Positions 37,916 through 51,515 of a stretch of 64,000 bases of DNA are shown piece by piece; positions within the stretch are counted from its first letter, which is position 1, and each line of letters starts with the position of its first letter. The position numbers and the translations under genes are program-made. The notes under the pieces are model-generated. The model saw nothing but the letters and a program-made list of their open reading frames with translations. It searched no databases and was not told the origin of the DNA. The stretch comes from Acidobacteriota bacterium (GTDB lineage: Bacteria > Acidobacteriota > Thermoanaerobaculia > Multivoradales > JBCCEF01): contig JBCCHV010000017.1 of assembly GCA_039028635.1 (NCBI GenBank), positions 1 through 64,000 of the forward strand, in the 5' to 3' direction.

Positions 37916-38371
37916 TCACAGCCAGCGGCGGACCCGGGCGCAGTAGTCGCGGTAGGCGTCTCCAAATTTGCGCTCGAGGTAGGCCTCCTCGTGGCGCACC
38001 GCCGTGCGGTAGACCAGGCCGAGGGATAGCGGCACCAGCACCACCAGCCAGCCATAGCCCTTGATCAATCCGCCGGCTGCCTGCAGCAGGGCCATCCCGA
38101 CGTACATCGGGTTGCGCGACCAGCGATAGATCCCCCGCGCCACCAGGCTCGGGCTCGGCTTCCAGGGCTCCGGGTCTTGGCCCGAGCGCAGCAGCGACGT
38201 CAGGCTCGCCGCCAGCAAGACGATTCCCCCGGCGAGACACAGCCAGCCGGCGAAGGGAAATCGCCCGGGCAGCGGCAGCACCCGCCCCAGCAGAACACCG
38301 AGGCCCGCCACCGCCACGAACACCAGCGGCGGCGGAATGCGAACGGCGGCGCGGTCCTCGGGAGCACCCAT
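37916..38371 (-). CDS. Isoprenylcysteine carboxyl methyltransferase-family membrane protein
   Basis: 151 residues with three to four membrane spans (about 15-30, 40-58, 93-125). The C-terminal signature of the ICMT/PEMT superfamily is clear: LVARGIYRWSRNPMYVGMAL, followed by VRHEEAYLERKFGDAYRDYC near the end. These enzymes methylate lipid or small-molecule substrates using SAM bound at the membrane. The bacterial substrate is unknown. It converges with the beta-helix gene (47 nt apart). The start lacks a strong ribosome binding site. Confidence 0.88.
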   Translation of the reverse strand: MGAPEDRAAVRIPPPLVFVAVAGLGVLLGRVLPLPGRFPFAGWLCLAGGIVLLAASLTSLLRSGQDPEPWKPSPSLVARGIYRWSRNPMYVGMALLQAAGGLIKGYGWLVVLVPLSLGLVYRTAVRHEEAYLERKFGDAYRDYCARVRRWL

Positions 38372-38516
38372 CGCCGGTGATCATAGCGATCCTCGGCGGC
38401 GGGAATTTTCGCCTTCCAGGAAATGTATAGAGCTTGACCGAAAGACCCCCCGAGGGGCTCGGCAATCGACCAAGACCGCATCACGCTGGCGCGCCAGCTA
38501 GAGGAGAAAATCTCTC

Positions 38517-39218
38517 ATGGAGCTATCCGGAGCCAAAGCCCTCATCACCGGCGGATCCGGCGGCATCGGCAAGGGCATCGCCGCCGCCCTGGTCGCCGCA
38601 GGATCGACCGTCACCATCACCGGCCGGCGACAGGAGAGCCTCGAAGCCACCGCCGCCGAGCTCGGAGTCGACTGGATCCAGGCGGACGTCGGCGTCGAGG
38701 CGGACGCGGTACGCACCGTCGCCGAGTTCGTCGAGCGCCACGGTCGTATCGACATCCTGGTCAACAACGCCGGATTCGGCCACTTCGCGCCGCTGGTCGA
38801 GATGGAGCTGGCCGACTTCGAGCGCGTTTACCGCACCAACGTCTTCGGCGCCTTCCTGATGGCTCGCGAAGCGGCGCGCCACTTCGTGCGCCAGGAGTCC
38901 GGCGAGCTGATCAACATCTCCTCGACCTCGGGCCTAAAGGGCGGCCGCGGCAGCACCGCCTACTCGTCGTCGAAGTTCGCCTTGCGCGGCATGACCGAGT
39001 GTTGGCGCGACGAGCTGCGACGGTCGAACGTGCGGGTGATGCTGGTCAATCCGAGCGAGGTGCTCACCGACTTCGCCGCCACCGCCGGCTTTGAGCAGCA
39101 GCCCTCGGAGAAGAAGCTGCGCGCCCAGGAGATCGCCGACGCCATCGTCGGCGCCCTGAAGATCGACCATCGCGGCTTCATTCCGGAGTTTTCGGTCTTC
39201 GCCACCAACCCGTTCTGA
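38517..39218 (+). CDS. Short-chain dehydrogenase/reductase
   Basis: 233 residues, the usual length of a classical SDR. The cofactor motif TGGSGGIGKGIA (about 11-22), NNAG (about 83-86), the catalytic Ser (INISSTSG, about 128-135) and YSSSK (Tyr about 145, Lys about 149) are all present. After GR in strand 2 (ITGRRQES) an arginine pair suggests NADPH preference. The substrate is unknown. It stands alone and is followed by a strong hairpin. GAGGAG lies 10 nt before the ATG. Confidence 0.93.
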   Translation: MELSGAKALITGGSGGIGKGIAAALVAAGSTVTITGRRQESLEATAAELGVDWIQADVGVEADAVRTVAEFVERHGRIDILVNNAGFGHFAPLVEMELADFERVYRTNVFGAFLMAREAARHFVRQESGELINISSTSGLKGGRGSTAYSSSKFALRGMTECWRDELRRSNVRVMLVNPSEVLTDFAATAGFEQQPSEKKLRAQEIADAIVGALKIDHRGFIPEFSVFATNPF

Positions 39219-39224
39219 CGGTTC

Positions 39225-39262
39225 GCGACCTCCGAGACTCGCGATCGAAGCTCGGAGGTCGC
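39225..39262 (+). terminator. Perfect 12-bp hairpin after the SDR gene, no U-tract
   Basis: GCGACCTCCGAG (39225-39236) pairs exactly with CTCGGAGGTCGC (39251-39262) over a 14-nt loop, 6 nt after the stop codon. No T-run follows. The stretch from here to 39446 shows no gene. Confidence 0.5.
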
Positions 39263-39446
39263 CAATCGGCTCCTTCACAGACCCAGCGACCGCTGATCTC
39301 GACACCTTGGAAATGGTGTCGGTCTCGCCACCCGGGAGCGCCCCGAGGCCCTGCGAGAGGGCGACCAGAGCCCCTGCCGGCGAAACCGACGGAGGGAAGA
39401 ATCGAATCCTCTTCTCCACCCCGCCGGATCGCTTCAGCGCTGCGCG

Positions 39447-39779
39447 TCAGCTGCAGTAAAGGCCGTCACGAAAGAAGATACAGCGGAACGGCAGACTGTT
39501 GCAGTCCGCCGGCGAGGCATTGATGTAACAGCCCGAGCTGCCGGTACCTGAGGTGCAGGGAGTGACGTTGCGGATCTTGTAGGCCGACTGCGTGCCGGTG
39601 GTGATCCGCTGACCGTCGCAACCCCGGAAGTAGGTACCAACCTCGTTACCGTTGGCATCCAGCCAGATGATGTCGGTTTCGACCGAAGGCAGCGCATCGG
39701 TTTCGCCAGGGCCGAAGACCGCAATCCCGGCGACCAGCGCGAAGAGTCCGACGGCGAGGAGGATGTTTCTGGTTTTCAT
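39447..39779 (-). CDS. Small secreted Cys-containing protein (DUF6289-like)
   Basis: 110 residues from ATG 39779 (AAGGAG 8 nt upstream). A signal peptide (hydrophobic core about 6-24) precedes a short mature part with IIWLDANGNEVGTYFRGCDG, then six further cysteines toward the C-terminus. The IxxxDANGNxVG...CDG pattern recalls the DUF6289 family of small secreted proteins; this is a tentative match. It lies 131 nt from the kinase gene, same strand, downstream of it. The role is unknown, possibly a disulfide-stabilised secreted peptide. Confidence 0.7.
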   Translation of the reverse strand: MKTRNILLAVGLFALVAGIAVFGPGETDALPSVETDIIWLDANGNEVGTYFRGCDGQRITTGTQSAYKIRNVTPCTSGTGSSGCYINASPADCNSLPFRCIFFRDGLYCS

Positions 39780-39910
39780 CTCGACTTCTCCTTGCTCAGA
39801 GCAGTGATTGATGAGCTCGCGGCAGCCGGTCCGAGAGGGCATTCCATCGACGAATCTCGGCGGCCCCGAGCGCCTCTACCCTGAGCGGCGACGTCGAGGA
39901 GAAAAGGGGA

Positions 39911-42532
39911 TCAAGAATTTTCGCGGAGGCGAGCTTCGAAGGGGGTGATCGCGGCGACGTCCCCACAGCGACCGAAGTGACCGCGCAACCGCGACAGAGC
40001 GTCCTGCCTGGTGCGCTCCTTCGCCACGGCCAACAGCGAGTCGAAGCTGTCGACGAGGATGGCTTCCGCCGCCGTGCATTTGCCTTGCACGCTCAGGCTC
40101 TCGCCCAGCACGCCGCGCCCCTCGGCGAAGCGCCAGTGGTCTCCGAGACGGGGCCGCCAGCGTTCCAGAAGCGAACGCAGGCGCAACTCGGCCGTTACCG
40201 CCTGTCCCTGGGGAATCAGGGCCATGGCGATGCGCACCTCGAAGTGAAACACCATCCAGTGCTGCGAGTCGATGTCGAGAATCACCTGCCGAGCCTGGCG
40301 GAAGAGCTCTTCCGCTCCTTCGAACTCGCCGCGTAGCAAGCGCACGCTGGCAAGGTTGTTGAGGACGTAGGGATTGAGGTTCTCGCGACCGAAATTCTCG
40401 ATGGTCAGATCGAGCGCCCGCTGGTAGGCCCGTTCGGCCTCTTCCAGATCGTCCAGGCGCCGCAGACTGAGGCCGAGGTTGTTGAGGGTCGGAATCTGCC
40501 CCGGATGGTCTTCGCCATCACGCCGCCGTCGGCGCTCGAGCGCGGCGCGATTGAGCTGGATCGCCTCGCGGTAGCTCCCTTCGGCACTGCGAATCCGCGC
40601 CAGGTGCTCGAGCGCCGCCAACTCCTGGAGGCTACCGCCCGGCAACGCGCGCGCCAACTGAAGAGCCTCGCGGGCCGGCTCGTCGGCGGCCTCGAATTCA
40701 TTGCGGAAACACAACACCGACACCAGATGATTGAGGGACTCGACCAGCGCCCCGGCAGCGCTCGCGGGATGGCCCTCGGCCTGCAGCCGGCGACTGATGT
40801 CGACCGCCTTTCGAGCCTGTTCCTCGGCGAGGTCGAAATCTCCCAGCTCTTTGTTGGCGGCAGCCAAGGCAGCGAGCGAAGCCGCCGACTCCGGATGATC
40901 CTCGCCATGGCGCTGGCGACGGATCTCGTAGGCCTCCTCGAGCTGCGCCCGCGCCACATCATGATGCCCCAGCACACCGAGAATCGAGCCGGTGGTGTGT
41001 AGCAGCTCGGCCCGCGCCTCGGCCTCTTCCCGCAGTCCCTCGTCGAGCCTGGGGAGACTGCGCTCGAGGGCCTGGCGCACGGTGAGGTCGCTCCCCGGCA
41101 CTTTGAATGGATTGCTGTACTCGAAGACCTCGAGAATCAAGGCCAGCACCTGGGCCTTTTTGTCCCTCTCACGCTGCACCTGATCCCGTTCCCGGGTCAC
41201 CCGAGCGGACTGCAAGGCGAGGGCCACGGCGAAGCTCACCAACACCAGTGCGGCCGCTGCCGCGGCGGTCACGGCTCGTCGGTGCCGGCGCACGAACTTA
41301 CCCAGCCGATAGCGCCAGGAGCCGGCCCGCGCCAGCACCGGGCGACCGTCTTGAAATCGCTCGATATCGGTGGCCATCTGCTCCACCGAGCCATATCGCC
41401 GATGGGGCGTGCTGCGCAGGGCCTTGAGCACGATGGCGTCGAGATCGCCACCGAGCTGCCGGCTGCGACGCAGCCTCTGCCGCTGCCGGCGCGGATCTTG
41501 GTCCACTGCTCCCTCGTCGGTACCGTCATCACCGGCCGGCCCGCTGGACAGCGTCCGGCGAGTGACCGCAACGCTCGGCGGCAGCGGCTCTTCCTGGTCG
41601 AGAACCTGCTCGATCTCGGCGGCCGTCAGCCCCGCGAGCTGATGCGGCAGATGGCCGGTGAGTAGCTTGTAGAGAAGGACACCGAGCGAGTAGACGTCGC
41701 TCGCCGTGGTGATCAGCTTGCCTCGCACCTGCTCTGGACTGGCGTAGTTGGGAGTCAAGGCCTGATGCCAGGTCGCGGTTGCCTCCACCGCCCCGCTCTG
41801 CAGCTCCGGATTGAGCAGCTTGGCGATCCCGAAGTCGAGCAGGCGGGGCTCACCGTCGGCCGTCACCAGGATGTTCGATGGCTTGAGGTCACGATGCACC
41901 ACCAGATTCTGATGGGCATAGTGCACCGCCGAGCAGACCTTGCGAAAGAGAACCAGCCGCTCGTCGACGGAAAGCCGGCTCTGATCGCAGTAGTCGTCCA
42001 GGGGCACGCCCTCGACGAACTCGAGCACGAAGTAGGGCAAGCCGTCCTCGGTGGTGCCACCGTCGTAGAGACGGGCGATATAGGGATGCTCGAGGCTGGC
42101 GAGAATCTGGCGCTCGGTCCGCAGACGCTGCTGAATGGACTGCGAGTCCATTCCCGGTCGCAGCAGCTTGAGCACGACGCGGCGCTCAAAGGTGTCGTCG
42201 GCGCGCACCGCGAGATAGGCGATACTCATGCCGCCCTCGCCGACCCGCCGCAGGATCCGGTACGGTCCCACCCGCGAGCCCTTTTCGAGGGAGCGCCGAA
42301 GCGGCTGCGAGCCCAAACGCTCGGTGAGACCATCCACCCCCACCGAGAGCCCGAGCGACTGATCGATGAAGGCGCCCTCTTCGCGATCGGCGGCGATCAG
42401 CTCCTCCACCGTGCGGCGGAGCCCCGGGTCACCAGCGCAGGCCTTGTCCAGAAAGGCCTCGATCTCACCGGCGGGCCGGCCAACCGCCTGTTCGAAGATT
42501 TCCCAGGCACGGCTCCAGGCATCGTGGCTCAC
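39911..42532 (-). CDS. Membrane Ser/Thr protein kinase with C-terminal TPR array
   Basis: 873 residues from GTG 42532, whose GTGA overlaps the sigma factor stop. The kinase domain (about 90-395) has a G-loop with one change (GEGGMS, Ser103 in place of the third Gly), Lys122, HRD (213-215), DFG (233-235) and SPEQ, so it is probably active. It carries an unusual Gln/Arg-rich insert near 325-350. One membrane span (about 430-450) leads to a TPR array (NNLGLSLRRLDDLEEAERAY). It is paralogous to the kinase at 17591, with the same gene order after an ECF sigma factor. Ligand and substrates are unknown. Confidence 0.93.
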   Translation of the reverse strand: MSHDAWSRAWEIFEQAVGRPAGEIEAFLDKACAGDPGLRRTVEELIAADREEGAFIDQSLGLSVGVDGLTERLGSQPLRRSLEKGSRVGPYRILRRVGEGGMSIAYLAVRADDTFERRVVLKLLRPGMDSQSIQQRLRTERQILASLEHPYIARLYDGGTTEDGLPYFVLEFVEGVPLDDYCDQSRLSVDERLVLFRKVCSAVHYAHQNLVVHRDLKPSNILVTADGEPRLLDFGIAKLLNPELQSGAVEATATWHQALTPNYASPEQVRGKLITTASDVYSLGVLLYKLLTGHLPHQLAGLTAAEIEQVLDQEEPLPPSVAVTRRTLSSGPAGDDGTDEGAVDQDPRRQRQRLRRSRQLGGDLDAIVLKALRSTPHRRYGSVEQMATDIERFQDGRPVLARAGSWRYRLGKFVRRHRRAVTAAAAAALVLVSFAVALALQSARVTRERDQVQRERDKKAQVLALILEVFEYSNPFKVPGSDLTVRQALERSLPRLDEGLREEAEARAELLHTTGSILGVLGHHDVARAQLEEAYEIRRQRHGEDHPESAASLAALAAANKELGDFDLAEEQARKAVDISRRLQAEGHPASAAGALVESLNHLVSVLCFRNEFEAADEPAREALQLARALPGGSLQELAALEHLARIRSAEGSYREAIQLNRAALERRRRRDGEDHPGQIPTLNNLGLSLRRLDDLEEAERAYQRALDLTIENFGRENLNPYVLNNLASVRLLRGEFEGAEELFRQARQVILDIDSQHWMVFHFEVRIAMALIPQGQAVTAELRLRSLLERWRPRLGDHWRFAEGRGVLGESLSVQGKCTAAEAILVDSFDSLLAVAKERTRQDALSRLRGHFGRCGDVAAITPFEARLRENS

Positions 42533-43104
42533 GACTGTTCGACCCTCGTGTAGCGAATCAGCCAAGCGCGGGCGGTACGCCAACGCCGAGTGACCGTGGC
42601 GCTCGACAGCTCCAAGACCTCAGCGATCTCTTCCCGGTTGAGCCCGCCGAAGAAACGCAGCTCGACGAGCCGCGCCATTTCACGATCCTTGGCCGCCAGC
42701 TCGGTGAGTGCCTCGTCGAGAGCGATCAGCTCCCGAGAGCGCTCGACCGGGACCCGCCGGATCACCCCGGTGGTGACCTGCTGCTGGTCACCACCGCGCT
42801 TCAGCCGCCGGCGGTGTCGAGCGTGATCCACCAAAATTCGCCGCATCAGACGAGCGCACATGGCGAAGAAGTGGGCCCGATCCTTCCAGTCGATGCGTTC
42901 GAGCTCGAGGACCCGCAGGTAGACCTCGTGAACCAGCTCCGTCGGCTGCAAGGCCCGGCCCCGCTCCTCGCCCCGCAGCAGTCTCCCGGCGAGCCCCTTG
43001 AGCTCGCGGTAGACGAGCGGCATGAGCTCGCTCAGGGCGTCGTCGTCGCCCTGGCGCCAGGCCAGCAGCAGGCCCGTGATGTTGTAGGCGTCCGTTCCCA
43101 GCAT
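42529..43104 (-). CDS. ECF-type RNA polymerase sigma factor (kinase-linked group)
   Basis: 191 residues from ATG 43104 (GAGGGG close upstream); the extra in-frame codons upstream lack bias. Region 2 (ELVHEVYLRVLELERIDWKD, HFFAMCARLMRRILVDHARH) and region 4 (LRFFGGLNREEIAEVLELS) match the kinase-associated ECF-like group, as in the gene at 20400. It overlaps the kinase gene by 4 nt. No anti-sigma factor is adjacent. Confidence 0.92.
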   Translation of the reverse strand: MLGTDAYNITGLLLAWRQGDDDALSELMPLVYRELKGLAGRLLRGEERGRALQPTELVHEVYLRVLELERIDWKDRAHFFAMCARLMRRILVDHARHRRRLKRGGDQQQVTTGVIRRVPVERSRELIALDEALTELAAKDREMARLVELRFFGGLNREEIAEVLELSSATVTRRWRTARAWLIRYTRVEQS

Positions 43105-43231
43105 GGCCCCTCTACGAATCGGACCCTCGAAACCACCGCGGCGGCAGCCTGGAGAGTCGCCCAGATCCGCCGCCGCCGAGCACTCCATCGGGCTCAGCCC
43201 AAGCCACCCGCCAGGGAGCGGGCCGAGCTCC

Positions 43232-43492
43232 TCATTTCGTACGGCAGTCGAAGATTCCGAGGCCCCTCACCGAACCGCTGTCGCTGATGATGCAAAGCTC
43301 CATGCACACGGTGAGAGCCGGACAGTCTTCGAGTCCCAGATCCGATCGCAATTGCGATTCGGGCGTCACCAGCCAATCCTGAACCGTGTCGTGCATCGGC
43401 ACCGACAGGGTCGTCGGCACCACCGCCAAGGCGACCAACACGAGACATCCGACGATGATGATCGGCCTTCCCCAGGTCTTTCTGATCTTCAT
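43232..43492 (-). CDS. Small secreted protein of unknown function
   Basis: 86 residues with a strong ribosome binding site (AAAGGAGAGG). A signal sequence or anchor (about 9-29) is followed by a 55-residue mature part with four cysteines (CPALTVCMELC and FDCRTK at the end), likely two disulfides. It is upstream of the sigma/kinase pair, same strand, 127 nt away. With the small secreted protein at 39447 it brackets the kinase locus. No family is recognised. Confidence 0.65.
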   Translation of the reverse strand: MKIRKTWGRPIIIVGCLVLVALAVVPTTLSVPMHDTVQDWLVTPESQLRSDLGLEDCPALTVCMELCIISDSGSVRGLGIFDCRTK

Positions 43493-43815
43493 GACCTCTC
43501 CTTTCGCAGGGCCCGCATTCCGTCCCCGGCGCGAACCCAGGATTCGTGACCGAGATCAGCCGTCAAGGAAGCTACGCAATCCAAGTGGAGAATGTTGACC
43601 TTGCACGCGGCTGACTCATTTCTGGAGGCGGCAACTTCCTGCAGAATGGATCAACCGAGCATCGGCGATCTCCGATGCCACTTCGCGACGAGAGCCGGAG
43701 TCAGACCGGGCTTCTCACCAGTTTCCTGGCAACCGTCGTCCATTACTGACGGCGCCAGTTAGCCGCCGCCACCAGGAAGACGCTCCGCACACCCGGGCTC
43801 GGCGAAGCCTCAGGA
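43493..43815. other. Intergenic region, no gene seen
   Basis: 323 nt between the small secreted gene and the end of the GDSL esterase gene, both minus strand. No coding frame, strong hairpin or clear promoter was found apart from the AAAGGAGAGG site at its left edge. Confidence 0.4.
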
Positions 43816-44619
43816 TCAATCGGCGATCGGAGGGGCGAGAGACTGCAGCTCGGGCCGCTTCGGTCCACGTCCGTCACCGCGCGAGCGGCCGCGGGCGCGG
43901 CGCCAGGCCCAGGGCAAAAGGTGATCGCGTGCCCAGCGCGCGTCGTCGGTCCAGCGCTCGACGGCACCCGTCGGCGGTGACGGCGGCAGGGGATCGGCCC
44001 AGGATCGATCGCTGCCGGGCAGGCCGAGGGCGTCGGCGAGGGCGGCCGCCATGCGCTCGTGGCCGAGGGCATTGGCGTGCATGCGATCGTCGCTCCAGAA
44101 GCGCCGATCACCAGTCGTGGGAAAGTGCGCGAAGTCCACCAGCAGAGCACCGGTCTCGCCGGCCACCTGCCGCAACGCCTGGTTGAGGACCTCGAGACGC
44201 GGCGCGAAGCGACGAGCCAGCGGCATCACCGCGGTCAGATCCGGCATCGTGAAGGTCAGCACCGTCGCTCCGCGGTCGATCAACGCCCGCTGCATGGCGC
44301 GCACCTCGCCGGCGACCGCCTCGACGTCGAACTCGCGGCCGATGGCGTCGTTGGTACCGGCGAAGACCGTCGCCAGATCCGGCTCCATGGCGAGGGCCGG
44401 GGCGAGCTGCTCGGCCCGAATCGGACCAGCCCGCCGACCCCGAATCGCCAGGTTGGCGTAGCGCAGAGGCTCCCCATGCTGCTGCCACAGATGGTCCGCC
44501 AGCCGATCCGCCAGCCGATCGGCCCAGCCGCGAAAACCACCTTGGCCATCGGGATCGTTGAGGCCCTCGGTCGAGCTATCGCCGAGGGCGACATAGCGAC
44601 GAAAGACGGGAAGGCTCAT
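43816..44619 (-). CDS. SGNH/GDSL-family hydrolase
   Basis: 267 residues, no signal peptide. The SGNH blocks are present: block I ALGDSSTEGL (Ser near 15), the Gly block (AIRGRRAG), block III GTNDA, and block V DDRMHANALGH with the Asp-xx-His pair. The fold is a cytoplasmic esterase/lipase-type hydrolase related to SGNH acyl hydrolases. Substrate unknown. The C-terminal 60 residues are Arg/Pro-rich and probably disordered. It is transcribed away from the peptidase gene at 44787, sharing a divergent promoter region. Confidence 0.9.
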   Translation of the reverse strand: MSLPVFRRYVALGDSSTEGLNDPDGQGGFRGWADRLADRLADHLWQQHGEPLRYANLAIRGRRAGPIRAEQLAPALAMEPDLATVFAGTNDAIGREFDVEAVAGEVRAMQRALIDRGATVLTFTMPDLTAVMPLARRFAPRLEVLNQALRQVAGETGALLVDFAHFPTTGDRRFWSDDRMHANALGHERMAAALADALGLPGSDRSWADPLPPSPPTGAVERWTDDARWARDHLLPWAWRRARGRSRGDGRGPKRPELQSLAPPIAD

Positions 44620-44786
44620 CCCGGCATGCTATCCAACCGCCAGCCGGGCCTCCAACTCCCTCCTCGACCAGCGATGAAAAGCAGCCGCAGAACAACTTTC
44701 TCGGCTGATTCGTAAACCCTTCAAGAACCAGCCGGCACTGCGCATCTGGAGTTTCGCGCATTCATCGCTTGCGAGGAGGCCTGTCC

Positions 44787-47168
44787 ATGGGTTCCGCTCG
44801 ACCCGTTCTTTCGACTCTCGCCTTGGCCACCCTGATCACCGCCTCCACCGGCGCTGGGCTGGCCACCACGGCGGCTGGCCCCGAGATCTACGAAGAGATC
44901 CACCGCTGGCAGTTTTCGGTCTGCCCGGTGCCCCTCCCCGCAGGCGGCGTGAACCTGACCCGGGACACCGCTCGCTGGCATTTCGAGTCGGGCACTTTCC
45001 GCTGGCAGAAGGCGACCCCCGAAGGGCATCCCACCGGCCTGGTGTTCGAGGGCGCCGGGCGGTTCGAGATGACCCTGCCGGACGTCGGCGAGCGGCGTCA
45101 GTGGCAGCGCATGTCCGGCGCCGAGGCGCCGGTGGACGTCACCTTTCGTCGCGCCGTGCTGCGCACCTCCGAAGATCTCACCACGGCCTTCGCCGGCGCG
45201 ACACCCGGGGAATGCCCGACGCACACCTCCTTTCCACTGGCCAAGAACCGCCACGAGCACTATCTCAAGAAGCGCGCCTTCGACGTCGATGCGGTGATCG
45301 CCGCCGCCCTCGCCACCCCCGCCGCCGACTACCTGTGGGTGGAGTTCGATACCGAGGCCTTCGGCTGGCTGGCCTATCAGTACGATCCCTTCGCGCGCGA
45401 GGAGATCACCCTCTCGACGGTGCCCCTGAACCGCTGGGCCGAGACCTGGGTCAGCCTCGACCGCCCGGAGACCCGCGACGCCGAGGGCAAACCGAGCGGC
45501 GGTCGCGAGGCGCTCATCGACATCGAGCACGTCGACCTCGAGATCGACCTCACCGGACCGCGTCAGGGCCGCAACGTCGGTTTCTCCCAGACGCCGGTTC
45601 GCTGGGTGCCGGTCACCGCCGAGGTGCGCTTCACGGCGCAAACCGGTGGCGCCGGGGCCCTACTCTTCGGGCTCACCTCGACGGCCCGCCTGAGCGCCGT
45701 TCGCGCCCCGGACGGTGGCGCCCCAGACGGTGACATCCTGGCCTTCGCCCGGGAAGAGATCAGCGCCTGGACCAACGACGTGCGCAACAACACCTGGGAC
45801 GGTCAGGTTCTGGTCGCCCTGTCCAGGCCGCTGGTGGCGGGCGAGACCCGCACCTTGGCCTTCGACTACGAGTTGCAGATCGCCAACTACGCCCCCGGCC
45901 GGGGCTGGTATCCGGGGGTCCAGGACCAGTTCGAGGACCTGCACACCGCCACCATGACCTTCACCCGCGGCAAGCGCCAGGAGGTGCGCGCTTGCGGCAC
46001 CCGCCGCGCCGCCGAGGATCTGCAGGAGACCTGGGCCGTCGACGATCCCACCAAGATGGTGAGCTTCTCCTACGGCGAGAAGTTCCGCGAAGCCACCCTC
46101 GAGGTCGAAGGGGTACCGAAGGTCCACTCCTTCGGACCGCGCCTGCGCGGCGGTGCCGGCGGCGAGATGATCCGCAACGTCGGAATCGACGTCGCCAACA
46201 GCCTGCGCTACTTCCAGTGGCTGCTCGATGCGCCGCTCCCGGTCGACGAGATCCAGCTCACCGGCATCGCCGCCTTCCATGGACAAGCCTTCGACGGCTT
46301 CATCCACATGAGCGAGTCGACCTACCGCAACGAATCATCGGGACCGACCGAGATGTTCCGCGCCCACGAAGCAGCGCACCAGTGGTGGGGCCATGAAGTC
46401 GGCTGGCAAAGCTACCGCGATCAGTGGCTCAGCGAGGCCCTGGCCGAGTACTCGGCGATGCTGTTCATCAAGAACACCCTGAAGAACGGCGACAAGCTCT
46501 ACGACGAGGTGCTCACCGCCTACACCAACCTGGTGAACGGCTCGCGCAAGGGCGCCTTCGGCCGCTTCGCCCGTCCCTGGCTGGTCGAGACCAACCTCGC
46601 CGACCGCCGCCGCATGGGCCCGATCTGCCTCGGCTACCGCGCTTCGACGGTCGAGATCCCGCGCGGCTACCAGATCCAGGTCTATCACCGCGGCCCCCTG
46701 GTGCTGCACAGCCTGCACTCGCTGCTGCGCTTGATCAGCCCCGACCAGGACCTCTTCATCGAGATCCTGCGCGACTTCGTGCGCACCCACCGCGGCTCCG
46801 CCCCCAGCACCGCCGACTTCATCGCCACCGTCAACCGCCACGCCCCGGGCGACTGGCAGTGGTTCTTCGACCAGTGGCTGTGCAGCAACGACATCCCCAC
46901 CTACCGCTGGCAGCACCGTATCGAAGCCGCCCCGGCGGGCTCCGCGACACCCTTCCAAATGATCGTCGAGATCCACCAGGAAGACGTCCCGGAGGACTTC
47001 TTCTCCCTCATCCCCATCCGCTTCGACTACGGCGGCAACCGCACCGGCTCCTACCTCGCCAAAGTCGACGCCCCACAGGTCACCCTCACCGTGCCGCTGG
47101 CGGAAAAGCCCAAAAAGGTCGAACTCAACCCGGACTTCTCAGTGCTGGCAAAGGTCAAGAAGATGTAG
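44787..47168 (+). CDS. Secreted M1-family-like metallopeptidase
   Basis: 793 residues from ATG 44787 (GAGGAGG 7 nt upstream; GTG/ATG starts 18 nt earlier lack one). A signal peptide (about 7-30) is followed by an N-terminal beta region (to about 470) and a gluzincin domain with zinc site HEAAHQWWGHE (about 527-537) and the third ligand Glu about 18 residues on (WLSEALAEY). The C-terminal part includes a beta domain (VPEDFFSLIPIRFDYGG). M1 enzymes are aminopeptidases; the GxMEN substrate loop is not evident, so the specificity is uncertain. It stands alone and converges with the NACHT gene. Confidence 0.88.
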   Translation: MGSARPVLSTLALATLITASTGAGLATTAAGPEIYEEIHRWQFSVCPVPLPAGGVNLTRDTARWHFESGTFRWQKATPEGHPTGLVFEGAGRFEMTLPDVGERRQWQRMSGAEAPVDVTFRRAVLRTSEDLTTAFAGATPGECPTHTSFPLAKNRHEHYLKKRAFDVDAVIAAALATPAADYLWVEFDTEAFGWLAYQYDPFAREEITLSTVPLNRWAETWVSLDRPETRDAEGKPSGGREALIDIEHVDLEIDLTGPRQGRNVGFSQTPVRWVPVTAEVRFTAQTGGAGALLFGLTSTARLSAVRAPDGGAPDGDILAFAREEISAWTNDVRNNTWDGQVLVALSRPLVAGETRTLAFDYELQIANYAPGRGWYPGVQDQFEDLHTATMTFTRGKRQEVRACGTRRAAEDLQETWAVDDPTKMVSFSYGEKFREATLEVEGVPKVHSFGPRLRGGAGGEMIRNVGIDVANSLRYFQWLLDAPLPVDEIQLTGIAAFHGQAFDGFIHMSESTYRNESSGPTEMFRAHEAAHQWWGHEVGWQSYRDQWLSEALAEYSAMLFIKNTLKNGDKLYDEVLTAYTNLVNGSRKGAFGRFARPWLVETNLADRRRMGPICLGYRASTVEIPRGYQIQVYHRGPLVLHSLHSLLRLISPDQDLFIEILRDFVRTHRGSAPSTADFIATVNRHAPGDWQWFFDQWLCSNDIPTYRWQHRIEAAPAGSATPFQMIVEIHQEDVPEDFFSLIPIRFDYGGNRTGSYLAKVDAPQVTLTVPLAEKPKKVELNPDFSVLAKVKKM

Positions 47169-47194
47169 AAACCGGCGCGGGAATTACTAGGGAG

Positions 47195-49537
47195 TCAGCG
47201 CAGAACCGAGTGATGTCTCAGGGTTGGAAAAGAGGCCGCCAGGTCGTAGCGAGGGAAGGCATCGACGAAGTCACGCAGGAGACGATCTCCACGGTCGTTG
47301 CCGGCGATGGACTTGACCAACCACTCAGCCATCTCCTCCGGGCTCTCGGAGAGTCCGATGTAGAAAGCAAGAACTTCTCGCCACCAGTCATCGCCCTTCA
47401 AGTACTCTCTCAGTGCCATCGATACCGACGAGTTTCCGGGCTTCGAATCCGACCTCCTCGAGAGCTCAAGGTAGGAGGGATCGACCGCCTGCGCCGGCAT
47501 CCCCATGAAGTAGGACGCGCAGAAGAATTCCTGAAAAGACAGGTGCGGAAAGTAGAGGACGTTCGCCGAATGGGCGAGCAGGCCATCCCGAACCAGCTCG
47601 ACACAGATCTGTTCGACTTCGTCGTCGGAGAACACGCCTGCGGACCTCTGGACGGCCTCTTTCACCAGGTCGACCTTGAAATGACGCACACGAGTCTCCT
47701 GGGCGGTCCGCGCGAGTCGACAAAGTACATTCTTCTTCTCTCGTCGACTGAACTGCGAATCGCGCGCCACTCTTTTTGCAAAGTCCCAGCCACCCGCAAG
47801 GAGATCGGCAAAGGTTCTATAGAGCCCAGAGCGATTCTCAGGTACCTCCCGGGTCTCTTTGTAAGTCAGCAAGATCAAACGGGCCAATAGCGGAACACCG
47901 AACAGATCCCTCAGCGCTGCGGTCGAATTCAATTGCTCGAAAAACCGCCCGCATTCGGCCTCGGAACCGAGAACGCGAAAGGCTAGATCTCTCTGCGACT
48001 CTCGATCCAAGAGACTCAGCTGGAGCTTTGGCAACCAGGCGAGCTCGGGCATGCGAACGTAGTCGCGTGCGGTCAAGATCACCTGCAGACCGTTTTCGTG
48101 TGCGTCACGAGCTGCGGCGCAGATCTGGCGACGAGTCTCCAGAGAAGAAACTTCGTCCAAACCATCGAGATAGAGGCGTACCGACATGCCCTTGCCCCCG
48201 TCAACGGTTGGTCCTTCCGGAAGCAGGGCCGAACGGCCGATGCCCTTGAGAAACGCATCTCGATAATTAGAAAACGCTCTGCGAGCAAGAACATTGAGCG
48301 GAATGAAGACCGGGAAGACCTCGGAGGCACGGGACCGGTATCTCTCCGTATCGATCAGCGCATTCCAACGACAGAAAGAGGTCTTGCCGTAACCGGCAGG
48401 CCCCAAGATCATCCATGATTGTCGAGACTCCCGGACCTGCGATTCCTGGGTCCCAAGGCCGGCGACTCCCACCCGATCGAGCATCGCGTAGGGAGCCGAA
48501 GACAAGCAATCGGTCAGACATTGAGCCATTTGTGCCGACTGGCTTCGGAAATCCTCGAGCGAGGCTGACTCGAGATCTCCGATCTCGGAGCTCGTGCGAG
48601 CAGCGGCCCTCATCGGACTGACCGCCAGGAAGATTCGAGGGCGCAGGCGATCAGCCTTACCGGCAAGCTGCTCCACCGAGCTTCGACGGCTTCGCAACGC
48701 TCGCTCAACCTCACCGACGAAGGAACCGATTTCACTCGCGAGAGCTTCGACGCCGTCGTCGCGATTCGCGCTCGAGAAATGGTCGGCGTCAATGAGACGC
48801 CAGCGATGGAGATGCGGCAAGTTGCGGCGTAGAGCCTTCAGAAACTGAAGAGCCGGTTCGAGATCTTCCTCATCTCCGTCGGTCTTAAACTCTGGCACCG
48901 GCGTTCGAAGAAACGAGACATCCCAGCGACCGACTTCGAGATGCAGACTACGGAGGACATAGATTGTTCGCTCGAAGTCGTCCGGAGGCTTCAGTCCGTA
49001 GTTGGCTGCGACTTCCCGAAGATCATCTTTCTGCCCCTCCTCTTCGAGAAGACGAAGGCTCTCTTCGAGCTGAGTGAACTCATCAACGAAAAAATCCATC
49101 CAATAGGTTCTCAGGAGATCGAACAGCTTCTCTCCCGGCACGAAGACCACCTGGCCGGCACGAGAAGCCAGCTTTCCCTGCAACGACGCGATCGCCGCCT
49201 GAGTGATGACTTCGGGTGAGATCACGTAGACATGGTGAATCCGCTGTTCCTGGCCATACTGATCCAGAAAAGGAGTATCCAAGGCCTGCTCGATCTGATC
49301 GAAGACGGCTCTGAGTCCACCGGCCTTGCCGACGGACCCGCTCACTCTCGAGTTCTTGACGACGCAGGCGCAGGCCACTGGCTCCCCAAGTGCCCCCTTG
49401 GTCCAGAAGACGATGTCCTTGCCGTACTCCATCTGTCCATGGAGGATCTGGACTTCGGAGATCTCCGGCATTCGCATGAACAGCTTCGCCAGGACCTGAC
49501 GAAGCAGCTCTTCGGACTCGAACTTAGGCAACGACAT
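47195..49537 (-). CDS. NACHT NTPase with N-terminal nuclease-like domain, candidate anti-phage protein
   Basis: 780 residues from ATG 49537 (GGGGAG 7 nt upstream; an ATG 39 nt earlier is in frame). Residues about 1-150 resemble an Mrr-like restriction endonuclease fold: MEYGKDIVF (Asp41) and ACACVVKNSR (Lys61). The residue two before Lys61 is Val, not the usual Glu/Gln. A helical linker leads to a NACHT domain with Walker A LGPAGYGKTSF (about 376-386) and Walker B RLYLDGLDEVSS (about 450-460). The winged-helix end (YFPHLSFQEFF, about 662) leaves only about 115 C-terminal residues, so there is no long repeat sensor. Such proteins are NLR-like defence ATPases that kill or arrest infected cells. 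Codon use is slightly less GC-biased than its neighbours, consistent with transfer. Confidence 0.85.
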   Translation of the reverse strand: MSLPKFESEELLRQVLAKLFMRMPEISEVQILHGQMEYGKDIVFWTKGALGEPVACACVVKNSRVSGSVGKAGGLRAVFDQIEQALDTPFLDQYGQEQRIHHVYVISPEVITQAAIASLQGKLASRAGQVVFVPGEKLFDLLRTYWMDFFVDEFTQLEESLRLLEEEGQKDDLREVAANYGLKPPDDFERTIYVLRSLHLEVGRWDVSFLRTPVPEFKTDGDEEDLEPALQFLKALRRNLPHLHRWRLIDADHFSSANRDDGVEALASEIGSFVGEVERALRSRRSSVEQLAGKADRLRPRIFLAVSPMRAAARTSSEIGDLESASLEDFRSQSAQMAQCLTDCLSSAPYAMLDRVGVAGLGTQESQVRESRQSWMILGPAGYGKTSFCRWNALIDTERYRSRASEVFPVFIPLNVLARRAFSNYRDAFLKGIGRSALLPEGPTVDGGKGMSVRLYLDGLDEVSSLETRRQICAAARDAHENGLQVILTARDYVRMPELAWLPKLQLSLLDRESQRDLAFRVLGSEAECGRFFEQLNSTAALRDLFGVPLLARLILLTYKETREVPENRSGLYRTFADLLAGGWDFAKRVARDSQFSRREKKNVLCRLARTAQETRVRHFKVDLVKEAVQRSAGVFSDDEVEQICVELVRDGLLAHSANVLYFPHLSFQEFFCASYFMGMPAQAVDPSYLELSRRSDSKPGNSSVSMALREYLKGDDWWREVLAFYIGLSESPEEMAEWLVKSIAGNDRGDRLLRDFVDAFPRYDLAASFPTLRHHSVLR

Positions 49538-49742
49538 AGCGAAACTCCCCACGTCTTCGGGATGCCCCGAAATCACCTTGGCCAGTTGCGATTTTGGGAA
49601 CTCTCTTAAGTGGCCGAGGGTTTGTCAAATAGCCATGACGACACTTCTCGGGAGCCGGTTTCGGCAGCCGAAGAAGGAGCGACCGGAGATCGATCCCGTG
49701 CTATCTTTGGGCCCTCCAAAATGACCTCCTGCGGGTCCCACC

Positions 49743-50618
49743 ATGCGCCCCATCCTTCAGCAGCCGGACCAAGACCAGATCCTCCGCCGGCGCGGCTGGA
49801 TTCGTACGCCATTGCTCGATGAATCGGGGGTCGCGGCGTTGCGATCTCGGGTGGAAGGGCTGCAGCCTTCCGATGGCTTCGCGCCGGAGGCGCAGGACCC
49901 GGCGCAGCCGACCTACCACTGCACTTACCTCGATCCCAAGGTGGAGTATCGCCGGGCTTCGGATGCCCTGGTGCGGGAGTTCTTCGCCGCGCCGCTGGCG
50001 CGGTTGCTCGCCGACTACCGGATTCTGACCAGCAACATCCACGTCAAGCCGCCGGGGCAGGGAGCGTTGATGATCCACCAGAACTGGCCGACGACGGCGA
50101 GCCTGGCGGACACCACCATCACCGCCTGGTGCCCGCTGATCGATGTCGACGAGGGCAACGGCGCGCTGCAGGTGATCGACGGCAGCCACAAGCTGCTGCC
50201 GGAGGTCGCCAACTTCGCCAGCCGCCCCTACTTCGCCGACTTCGAGGACACCCTCAAGGAGCGCTATTTCGAGCCCTTGACCATGGCCGCCGGCGAAGCG
50301 GTGCTGTTCGACGACAGCCTGCTCCACTACTCGGCCGACAATCGCAGCGCCGCGCCGCGGGTGGCGATCCAGATCGAGCTGGTGCCGCGCGAGGCGGAAA
50401 CGGTGATCCACTGGCTCGACCCGGCGGCGCCGGACCGTTTCGAGGTACTGGCGGCCGATTCCGATTTCTATGTCGAGGTCGGCCCGGGGCTCTTTGCCGG
50501 TCGTCCCAAGCTACCGAGCCGCGGCTTCGTCCCGAACCGCAATCGCCAGATCGACGAGGGTGAGTTCGCCGCCCTCCTCGCCCGCGGCGAAGAGATCCGC
50601 GACGCCCTGTACCGCTAA
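49743..50618 (+). CDS. Phytanoyl-CoA dioxygenase (PhyH)-family protein with HQN in place of HxD
   Basis: 291 residues. The double-stranded beta-helix of PhyH-type Fe(II)/2-oxoglutarate oxygenases is visible: MIHQNWPTT (His112, Asn114), WCPLIDVDEGNGALQVIDGSHK and the distal His195 (LLHYSADNRS), with Arg-containing strand after it. The usual iron-binding Asp is Asn114 here, so iron binding may be changed or lost; halogenases of the superfamily also lack the Asp (Ala/Gly). It converges tail to tail with the PhyH gene at 50625 (6 nt), which keeps HQD. Substrate unknown. Confidence 0.85.
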   Translation: MRPILQQPDQDQILRRRGWIRTPLLDESGVAALRSRVEGLQPSDGFAPEAQDPAQPTYHCTYLDPKVEYRRASDALVREFFAAPLARLLADYRILTSNIHVKPPGQGALMIHQNWPTTASLADTTITAWCPLIDVDEGNGALQVIDGSHKLLPEVANFASRPYFADFEDTLKERYFEPLTMAAGEAVLFDDSLLHYSADNRSAAPRVAIQIELVPREAETVIHWLDPAAPDRFEVLAADSDFYVEVGPGLFAGRPKLPSRGFVPNRNRQIDEGEFAALLARGEEIRDALYR

Positions 50619-50624
50619 CCCGGG

Positions 50625-51515
50625 CTAGCCGAACAACCGGCGCCACCAGGGCCTGCGAGGTGCCGCCTGGTCGGCGACCAGGTCCGCCGCCGCGAAGCTC
50701 GCCTCCGGGGAGCCGTGCCGCAGGATGGCGTCCTCGAGCCCCTCTACGGTGACCTCCGGCGGTTCCCAAGGCAGGTGCCCCAGGCTCTCCGCTTCGGGGC
50801 GCGACTGGTAGTCGTAGCGATAGAGAAAATCGCGCTCGATACGGAAGGCCTCGACCCGCTCGGCCTGCGGGTCGAGCCAGAAGAAGCGCATCTCGGCGCG
50901 GCGCGGCTTGATGCCGCAGAAGGCGGCGCTGCGCCGCCGATCGGAACGATTGGGGGTGGTGGCGTGGATCAGGGCGTGGTCGAAGATCACCGCCTGACCG
51001 CGGCGCACCTCAAGCACCTGGCGATGCTCGGCGATCAGCGCGTCGAGGTCGTCGCGGGCATAGATTGACGGAATGGTGGGGCTGCGGTAGGTCTCGTGAA
51101 AGCGATGGCTGCCAGAGAGGACGCAGAAGGTGCCGTTCTTGGCGTCGACGTCGAGCAGCGGGGCCCAGATCCCGAGGCTGCGGTGCTCGGCCTCGTCGAC
51201 CAGGGACCAGTCCTGATGATTCGAGAACTCGCCGGCTCCCGGGGCCTTGATGATGAAGACACCATCGATCCACTCGGCATCGACGAACAGCTCGTCGAGC
51301 TTCGACCGGTAGTGCTCACGGAAGAGCTCCTGGACGCGGGCCTTGTAGGCCTCGTCCGGGCTGCGGTTGGAAAAGAAAATGCCCTCGTCCACCGCATCCT
51401 GATGGAGGTTGTCGTGGATCGCCACCAAGCGGTCGAACTCGGCGTCGGTGAAGAACTCGATCACCACCCAGCCATCGCGCTCGAGCTGCTCGCGGGCCGC
51501 CGCATCCTTCAGCAT
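50625..51515 (-). CDS. Phytanoyl-CoA dioxygenase (PhyH)-family protein
   Basis: 296 residues with GGAGG upstream. The Fe(II)/2-oxoglutarate facial triad is intact: His100-x-Asp102 (SNHQDWSLVDE) and His184 (ALIHATTPNRSDRRR), with IWAPLLDVDAKNGTFCVLSG between. PhyH enzymes hydroxylate lipids, amino-acid derivatives or sugars. The N-terminus is helical (residues 1-70). It is followed 31 nt later, going upstream on the same strand, by the methyltransferase gene at 51547, so the two may be co-transcribed. Confidence 0.9.
   Translation of the reverse strand: MLKDAAAREQLERDGWVVIEFFTDAEFDRLVAIHDNLHQDAVDEGIFFSNRSPDEAYKARVQELFREHYRSKLDELFVDAEWIDGVFIIKAPGAGEFSNHQDWSLVDEAEHRSLGIWAPLLDVDAKNGTFCVLSGSHRFHETYRSPTIPSIYARDDLDALIAEHRQVLEVRRGQAVIFDHALIHATTPNRSDRRRSAAFCGIKPRRAEMRFFWLDPQAERVEAFRIERDFLYRYDYQSRPEAESLGHLPWEPPEVTVEGLEDAILRHGSPEASFAAADLVADQAAPRRPWWRRLFG

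Follow-up and report, generated by a model that had tools for sequence, protein, structure and literature searches.

Among the described bacterial NACHT (bNACHT) proteins, bNACHT25 and bNACHT32 of clade 6 are reported as PD-(D/E)XK-NACHT-NCH1 proteins with which DNA is degraded upon phage infection, D48A mutants of bNACHT25/32 lose both defence and DNA degradation, and bNACHT25 needs the host protein DnaJ (PMC12169576). By this description, both share with the protein analysed here the organisation as a single protein with an N-terminal PD-(D/E)XK-type domain, a central NACHT module and a helical C-terminus. Our protein is encoded in a 64,000-nucleotide stretch of DNA from an Acidobacteriota bacterium (contig JBCCHV010000017.1), hereafter the window. 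Its kind, a bacterial NACHT protein with a nuclease-like front, is ordinary; a fixed active-site change and the placing of its variable part are unusual. The following features were annotated (basis in brackets):

47195..49537, minus strand: whole gene, 780 amino acids plus stop, comprising nuclease-like domain, variable middle and NACHT module (open reading frame translation, full-length relatives)
49088..49537, minus strand: predicted PD-(D/E)XK (Mrr-like) domain, residues 1-150, with E9, E37, D41, V59 (usually Q/E), K61 and Q81 (alignments, model, hhalign)
49361..49363, minus strand: Val59 codon, two positions before the putative catalytic Lys61 (V/I in 10/10 members)
48458..49087, minus strand: hypervariable stretch, residues 151-360, candidate sensor or linker, with a YV motif at 193-194 (identity, lengths, pLDDT)
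47498..48457, minus strand: NACHT NTPase core, HD1 and winged-helix region, residues 361-680 (motifs, relatives, model)
47198..47497, minus strand: HD2-like helical end, residues 681-780, with no LRR or other repeat (model alignment, weak NLRC4_HD2 match)
49538..49742, no strand: AT-rich spacer shared with a divergent PhyH gene and containing GGGGAG (GC 57.6%)
38189..49772, no strand: interval missing from the congener G001, where its flanks lie 335 bp apart (blastn)

Translation of 47195-49537 on the minus strand gave 780 amino acids followed by a stop, starting from an ATG at 49537, in agreement with a preliminary description of the locus. A GTG 13 codons 5' of this ATG is likewise open; a ribosome-binding-like GGGGAG lies close 5' to the ATG. 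No sigma-70-type promoter was found in 47000-49800. The gene has a GC content of 57.8% and a GC3 of 66.6%, compared to 66.7-71.0% and 79.6-89.6% in nine neighbouring CDSs, so that the preliminary description, which called its codon bias slightly weaker, was right about the direction and understated the size. Because the window protein alone showed no Pfam match above cut-off, matched 0 PADLOC families and had no PDB match by sequence, its family assignment leans on relatives and on a predicted model.

Searching 396 genomes of the phylum revealed three full-architecture relatives (G420, G390, G183), and a plasmid search revealed one more on a mobilizable Desulfosarcina plasmid. Our first alignment, compared to genome contigs of 84,980 species, identified 20 loci, six with the front domain (L034-L039, L034 and the G420 relative being the identical gene) and fourteen without it. 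In total, ten front domains including that of the window were collected from Acidobacteriota, one Delongbacteria and one Desulfosarcina. Strong front-domain matches occurred in 4/396 phylum genomes, including the own genome, and distant ones in two more; the family is small and patchily spread. Scans of genome and viral contigs with the single protein yielded no relative, nor did a search of viral contigs with the front-domain alignment or a search of phage records. The IMG/VR contig L054 (L054:1-4201) holds a further C-terminal fragment of the family; its neighbours there are genes for a large serine recombinase and a DnaB-type helicase, which connects the fragment with mobile elements. In a tree of eight members and the cousin G005, 4/6 inner branches were open, and we therefore make no claim on transfer history. 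No description of this exact family was found in the literature covered, which excludes most subscription papers, and no family in Pfam, NCBIfam or PADLOC corresponded to it.

Two of the ten members are interrupted: in the G183 copy, an in-frame stop separates the front domain from NACHT (L032:9442-9444), the gene being either broken or naturally split into two proteins, and a Terriglobia copy is split after the front domain into two overlapping frames (L038:8704-8816). Related front domains also occur in other settings. A plasmid of Deinococcus aetherius encodes an 827-amino-acid protein annotated as hypothetical (L079:3944-6427); its front domain is related and carries a QLK motif, its P-loop is modified, and an IS21 pair lies upstream of it. 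Two frames of 335-353 amino acids (L068:8303-9361 and L078:1423-2427) carry the related domain at their C-terminus together with an intact QxK site and no NACHT; their N-terminal parts look alike, indicating a second architecture. L077 matched the front-domain profile (E 0.004) and was removed from the outgroups as a helicase-like sequence. The own genome also encodes a second NACHT protein of 806 amino acids (L033:2033-4453, contig C58) with C-terminal leucine-rich repeats, for which Pfam NACHT and LRR_4 both scored above cut-off; this NACHT-LRR protein adjoins a KAP-NTPase frame.

The front domain was examined in an alignment of ten rows and about 150 residues, the window protein included. 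Invariant in all rows were F6, E9, L12, E37, G39, K40, D41, F44, A57, C58, V60, K61, G67, Q81, G95, F132 and G135, and E37, G39, K40, D41, K61 and Q81 were invariant in 12/12 rows once two distant cousins joined the alignment. An AlphaFold2 model of the window protein built from 14 alignment rows (a single-sequence model with a mean pLDDT of 42 was discarded) predicted an alpha-beta-beta-beta-alpha-beta core with a pLDDT of ~90, formed by helix 9-22, strands 26-31, 42-47 and 53-60, helix 74-87 and strand 102-106. In this model, D41 opens strand 2 and K61 stands directly behind strand 3, as in PD-(D/E)XK enzymes, whose textbook layout of strands and catalytic residues matches this placement. 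When 13 Mrr_cat domains drawn from 29 matches listed were compared to the front domain by hhalign, the probability was 79.8% with the distant cousins included and 24.9% with the focal clade alone. The window protein itself had no Mrr_cat (PF04471) match in a Pfam scan; the best match among the relatives, L031, reached an E-value of 7.4e-4 and 20.1 bits, so that neither attained the cut-off of 21 bits.

Other searches said little about this domain. Its profile produced seven weak matches in the PDB (E 0.054-2), judged to be chance, and the PDB fold lists for the full model were filled by NLRs with no PD-(D/E)XK row seen, which is uninformative for the front domain. The same holds for a Foldseek search of viral models, since most of the named entries among its top 50 were ATPase, AAA and clamp-loader proteins, joined by a phage protein labelled NLR-like. 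Taken together, there is good but not conclusive support for an Mrr-like front domain. The combination of an Mrr-like N-terminal domain with NACHT, as originally proposed, is supported by the model, by the NLR fold alignment below and by the Mrr_cat profile match, and a PD-(D/E)XK-type core is indeed predicted. Because the family lacks the (Q/E)xK of motif III, for which it was tested, we do not file the protein as a proven PD-(D/E)XK nuclease and state with moderate confidence that it works like one.

The NACHT module is recognisable by its Walker A (GPAGYGKT, 379-386), Walker B (RLYLDGLDE, 454-462) and HLSFQE (665-670) motifs, all of which are kept with small variations in 8/8 full-length members. 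Walker A GxxGxGK[ST] and the DGLDE of Walker B are exact in seven of these, the eighth (L036) having APAGFGKS and an intact Walker B. A degenerate back-translation of Walker A occurred once in the window and in 0 of 100 shuffles. Six of the eight members matched Pfam NACHT at E up to 1, with two of the seven relatives (L034, L035) above cut-off; the window protein had no such match at E up to 1. Its model aligned with NLRP3 133-671 (8sxn_C; Z 22.4, rmsd 5.0, 392 residues) and NOD2 195-767 (5irn; Z 22.1, rmsd 4.5, 391 residues), in both cases from residue 328 to the last residue. By the domain borders of NLRP3 and NOD2, the aligned span presumably corresponds to NBD, HD1, WHD and HD2 and ends before the LRRs. 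The predicted structure thus shows the NBD-HD1-WHD-HD2 fold of a NACHT module, and the C-terminus of the protein probably falls near the point at which the LRRs start in animal NLRs.

Weak NLRC4_HD2 Pfam matches in 2/8 members, no LRR family among the eight in Pfam and a model ending after the HD2-like part are in line with a short C-terminus that is probably an HD2-like scaffold. The ~115 residues counted after the winged helix in the preliminary description are confirmed and are HD2-like in the model; the sensor it placed there is not evident, as this part matches the HD2 of the NLR scaffold and variation sits in the middle of the protein. Mean pairwise identities were calculated by region for the eight full-length members, amounting to 40.5% for residues 5-150, 16.9% for 151-350, 32.6% for 351-510, 39.3% for 511-680 and 30.5% for 681-763. 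The nuclease-like domain is hence the best conserved region and the middle is near background. The equivalent of residues 151-350 varies in length from 200 to 253 residues, and pLDDT in the middle stretch is mostly <60, a fold not to be trusted.

The distance from Y193 of the YV motif to the P-loop is 186-237 residues in 8/8 members, and a similar motif, where found in other NACHT proteins, lies 45-76 residues before it. Of 18 loci entered for these distances, some of which gave no row, fifteen comparison rows were kept, two minus-strand rows of another L045 frame being excluded: in nine, a [YFH][VI]x motif precedes the P-loop by 48-76 residues (doubtful in one, with HVYV), and six had none, counting L019 (HVVV at 5 residues) among the latter. 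The distance in the Deinococcus protein is 45 residues. In the G005 cousin, the YV motif is by eye likewise far from the P-loop, and the long stretch is therefore not unique to the focal family. If the protein has a separate sensor part, the variable middle would be the more natural place for it.

The neighbours of the gene are ordinary, as had been stated: an SDR, a kinase, an ECF sigma factor, a GDSL lipase, an M1 peptidase, two PhyH proteins, a methyltransferase, an ABC ATPase and a rotamase. No specific defence gene adjoins it in its own genome; the kinase, methyltransferase and ABC matches are generic, and a PADLOC match of the kinase to PD-T4-6 was rejected for this reason. Adjoining it at 49743-51515 are two convergent PhyH-family oxygenase genes whose order is conserved in G001. 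The flanks in G001 correspond to window positions 38188 and 49773, such that 11.6 kb with the NACHT gene at the right edge is missing there. G001, the sole congener compared, had no front-domain match, and no synteny with its compared stretch was seen left of 37.9 kb. Repeats around the gene were only short and imperfect, with no insertion scar. The gene had been described as a lone insertion; the whole interval is missing from G001, which does not fit, and only the NACHT gene with its upstream spacer is AT-rich within it, which does. Absence from G001 together with presence in 4/396 genomes differs from conservation in all relatives and supports that the gene is accessory rather than housekeeping.

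Neighbourhoods of the relatives were scanned for ten proteins and six loci (L029, L030, L031, L035, L036 and L037), with L032, L038 and L039 left out. A full-length match to the candidate defence family PDC-S71 lies 22 bp upstream on the same strand in L030, making a two-gene system possible in the lineage of the G420 relative. The PDC-S71 gene (L030:6432-8222) itself contains an Asp...His-Cys-Lys stretch that resembles a nuclease motif. L029 has a full-length match to the candidate defence family PDC-S28, L031 and L037 have partial Ppl matches, and L037 also has PDC-S73 with Mrr_cat and nSTAND3. Upstream of L031 lie an integrase of the phage type and a transposase of the IS91 type. Neighbours in L036 were helicases with PADLOC matches judged generic, and the scanned neighbours in L035 gave no PADLOC match. 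As no partner gene recurred in the scanned neighbourhoods of these six loci, the NACHT-nuclease probably acts alone.

With confidence a little better than even, we read the protein as a bacterial NACHT-type STAND protein that is self-contained, acts against phages and uses its nuclease front in a bNACHT25-like manner. At rest it would be a closed, ADP-bound monomer. An infection cue would be sensed via the hypervariable middle, the HD2-like end or both, with or without a host protein as intermediary (DnaJ in the case of bNACHT25), ADP/ATP exchange would lead to ring formation, and clustering of the front domains would switch on a metal-dependent DNase. DNA would then be degraded and phage spread stopped, probably by abortive infection. 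We infer this nucleotide-gated control of a DNase by oligomerisation by analogy with bNACHT25/32; the patchy spread, the mobile-element links and the candidate defence neighbours in some relatives suggest a role in defence.

The Gln or Glu of the PD-(D/E)XK site is usually regarded as essential. A Val at this position had been noticed in the window protein, and the change proved to be fixed throughout the family: K61 and the motif II Asp, D41, are kept in 10/10 front domains, and position 59 is Val in nine, Ile in one and Gln or Glu in none. The equivalent residue is Gln in 5/5 distant relatives (L067, L068, L076, L078 and the Deinococcus plasmid protein) and, counted from the alignment, Gln in nine and Glu in four of the 13 Mrr_cat domains, counts that share ancestry and may reflect a single event. 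E37 aligns with the first Asp of the Mrr DxGxD and is not a new compensating residue, since the distant cousins have it too. H33 (9/10) was the sole polar residue noticed near the site that is almost fixed in the focal family and missing from two cousins. With Val or Ile fixed, cutting could be slow or strictly dependent on oligomerisation, which seems somewhat more likely than complete catalytic loss.

Such a loss is the core of the best-surviving alternative, a possible though not favoured one, in which the defence role is the same and the front domain is a dead REase fold binding DNA or protein as a sensor or adaptor, with killing left to another mechanism or partner. NACHT-associated inactive REase domains have been proposed to serve in this way, and the curated Pfam family NA-iREase1, an abbreviation which we take to stand for such domains, offers a precedent, but 0/8 members match it. 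Replacement of Gln/Glu in every member is what a dead site predicts; dead relics, on the other hand, usually lose residues such as Asp41, Lys61 and Glu37, all kept in 10/10. It would also be odd for a dead relic to be more conserved than the NTPase core (40.5% vs 32.6%). While the candidate defence gene upstream in L030 could supply an effector, the window gene has no partner of this kind and none recurs among the scanned relatives. The invariant Asp, Lys and upstream Glu in the slowest-evolving domain make us lean towards an active nuclease.

It is rather doubtful that the family represents a distinct NLR-like lineage in which the hypervariable ~200-residue stretch between effector and NACHT, rather than the C-terminus, senses infection and a (Val/Ile)-x-Lys nuclease is active, working only when clustered in a ring or altered by this clustering. 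A function outside defence is unlikely. A STAND regulator, a stress-response protein or an anti-competitor factor that maintains a plasmid or mobile element would suit the ordinary neighbours in the window, and the plasmid location and nearby recombinases in relatives would equally suit element-borne exclusion; yet this sits poorly with the patchy distribution, with the defence-type neighbours of several relatives and with the eight members, in which no DNA-binding regulator domain was recognised. An NLR-like alarm whose nuclease-like domain targets RNA, or some nucleic acid other than DNA, is improbable: the altered motif III could mean a changed substrate and the fold prediction does not separate DNA from RNA, but Mrr_cat, the nearest named family, and the precedent bNACHT25 are both DNA-directed. 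Decay to a gene without present function in the window genome, as the two interrupted members might suggest, is very improbable for a copy that is fully open with every motif intact.

Should the favoured antiphage NACHT protein cut DNA, it would demonstrate that an immune effector can carry Val/Ile as a fixed replacement for the Gln/Glu of its PD-(D/E)XK site, and it might serve as a nuclease with naturally low leakage under the control of oligomerisation. Should it not cut, the family would cleanly exemplify a nuclease-dead domain that is conserved within a defence NLR. In both cases, the protein is a compact, LRR-free NLR that comes near a minimal NACHT alarm, its hypervariable stretch is a specific place to seek sensing, and ten natural variants make both questions testable.

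Comparison with known systems placed the family near several of them. Avs (AVAST) PADLOC profiles gave 0 families for the window protein, and one of eight members touched Avs1b (E 0.0023). EruA (NCBIfam NF058535) matched weakly and in the NACHT part only (E 9.1e-4), with 17.4 bits against a cut-off of 1000 for a model of 1318 positions. Clade 14 of the bNACHT proteins (SNaCT; bNACHT02, bNACHT12) likewise has a short C-terminus after NACHT and is reported to be without a readily discernible effector domain, whereas the window protein has one (PMC12169576); this comparison is by description, with 0 SNaCT matches in a Pfam scan of eight members. PF22723 had no match anywhere, controls included, and is hence uninformative. 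NA-iREase1 (PF22722) is similar in concept, being a NACHT-linked domain of the REase fold that has lost one or more catalytic residues; in contrast to it, the window family keeps Asp and Lys, and none of eight members matched at E up to 1. PF22722 had 0 matches in the own genome and matches in 46/247 phylum genomes, of which at least three places overlap Mrr_cat places, and these rows were therefore not used for comparison.

With NLRP3, NOD2 and NLRC4 the protein shares the NACHT-HD1-WHD-HD2 scaffold (Z ~22, rmsd 4.5-5.0 and ~390 residues to NLRP3/NOD2), and it differs from animal NLRs by the absence of LRRs, by a nuclease-type effector instead of PYD or CARD, and by an identity of 15-17%. Compared to bNACHT25/32, the family has Val/Ile for the motif III Gln/Glu and a long hypervariable stretch before the P-loop; we compared these proteins by their published architecture, any relatedness beyond NACHT being putative, and Pfam scans of the window protein and eight members had 0 matches to NCH1, for which Pfam may hold no model. 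Mrr_cat (PF04471) and the window family both have (D/E)-x-G-x-D and, after it, a strand that ends in K, and they part two residues before this Lys, where 13/13 compared Mrr_cat domains carry Gln or Glu and the window family carries Val or Ile.
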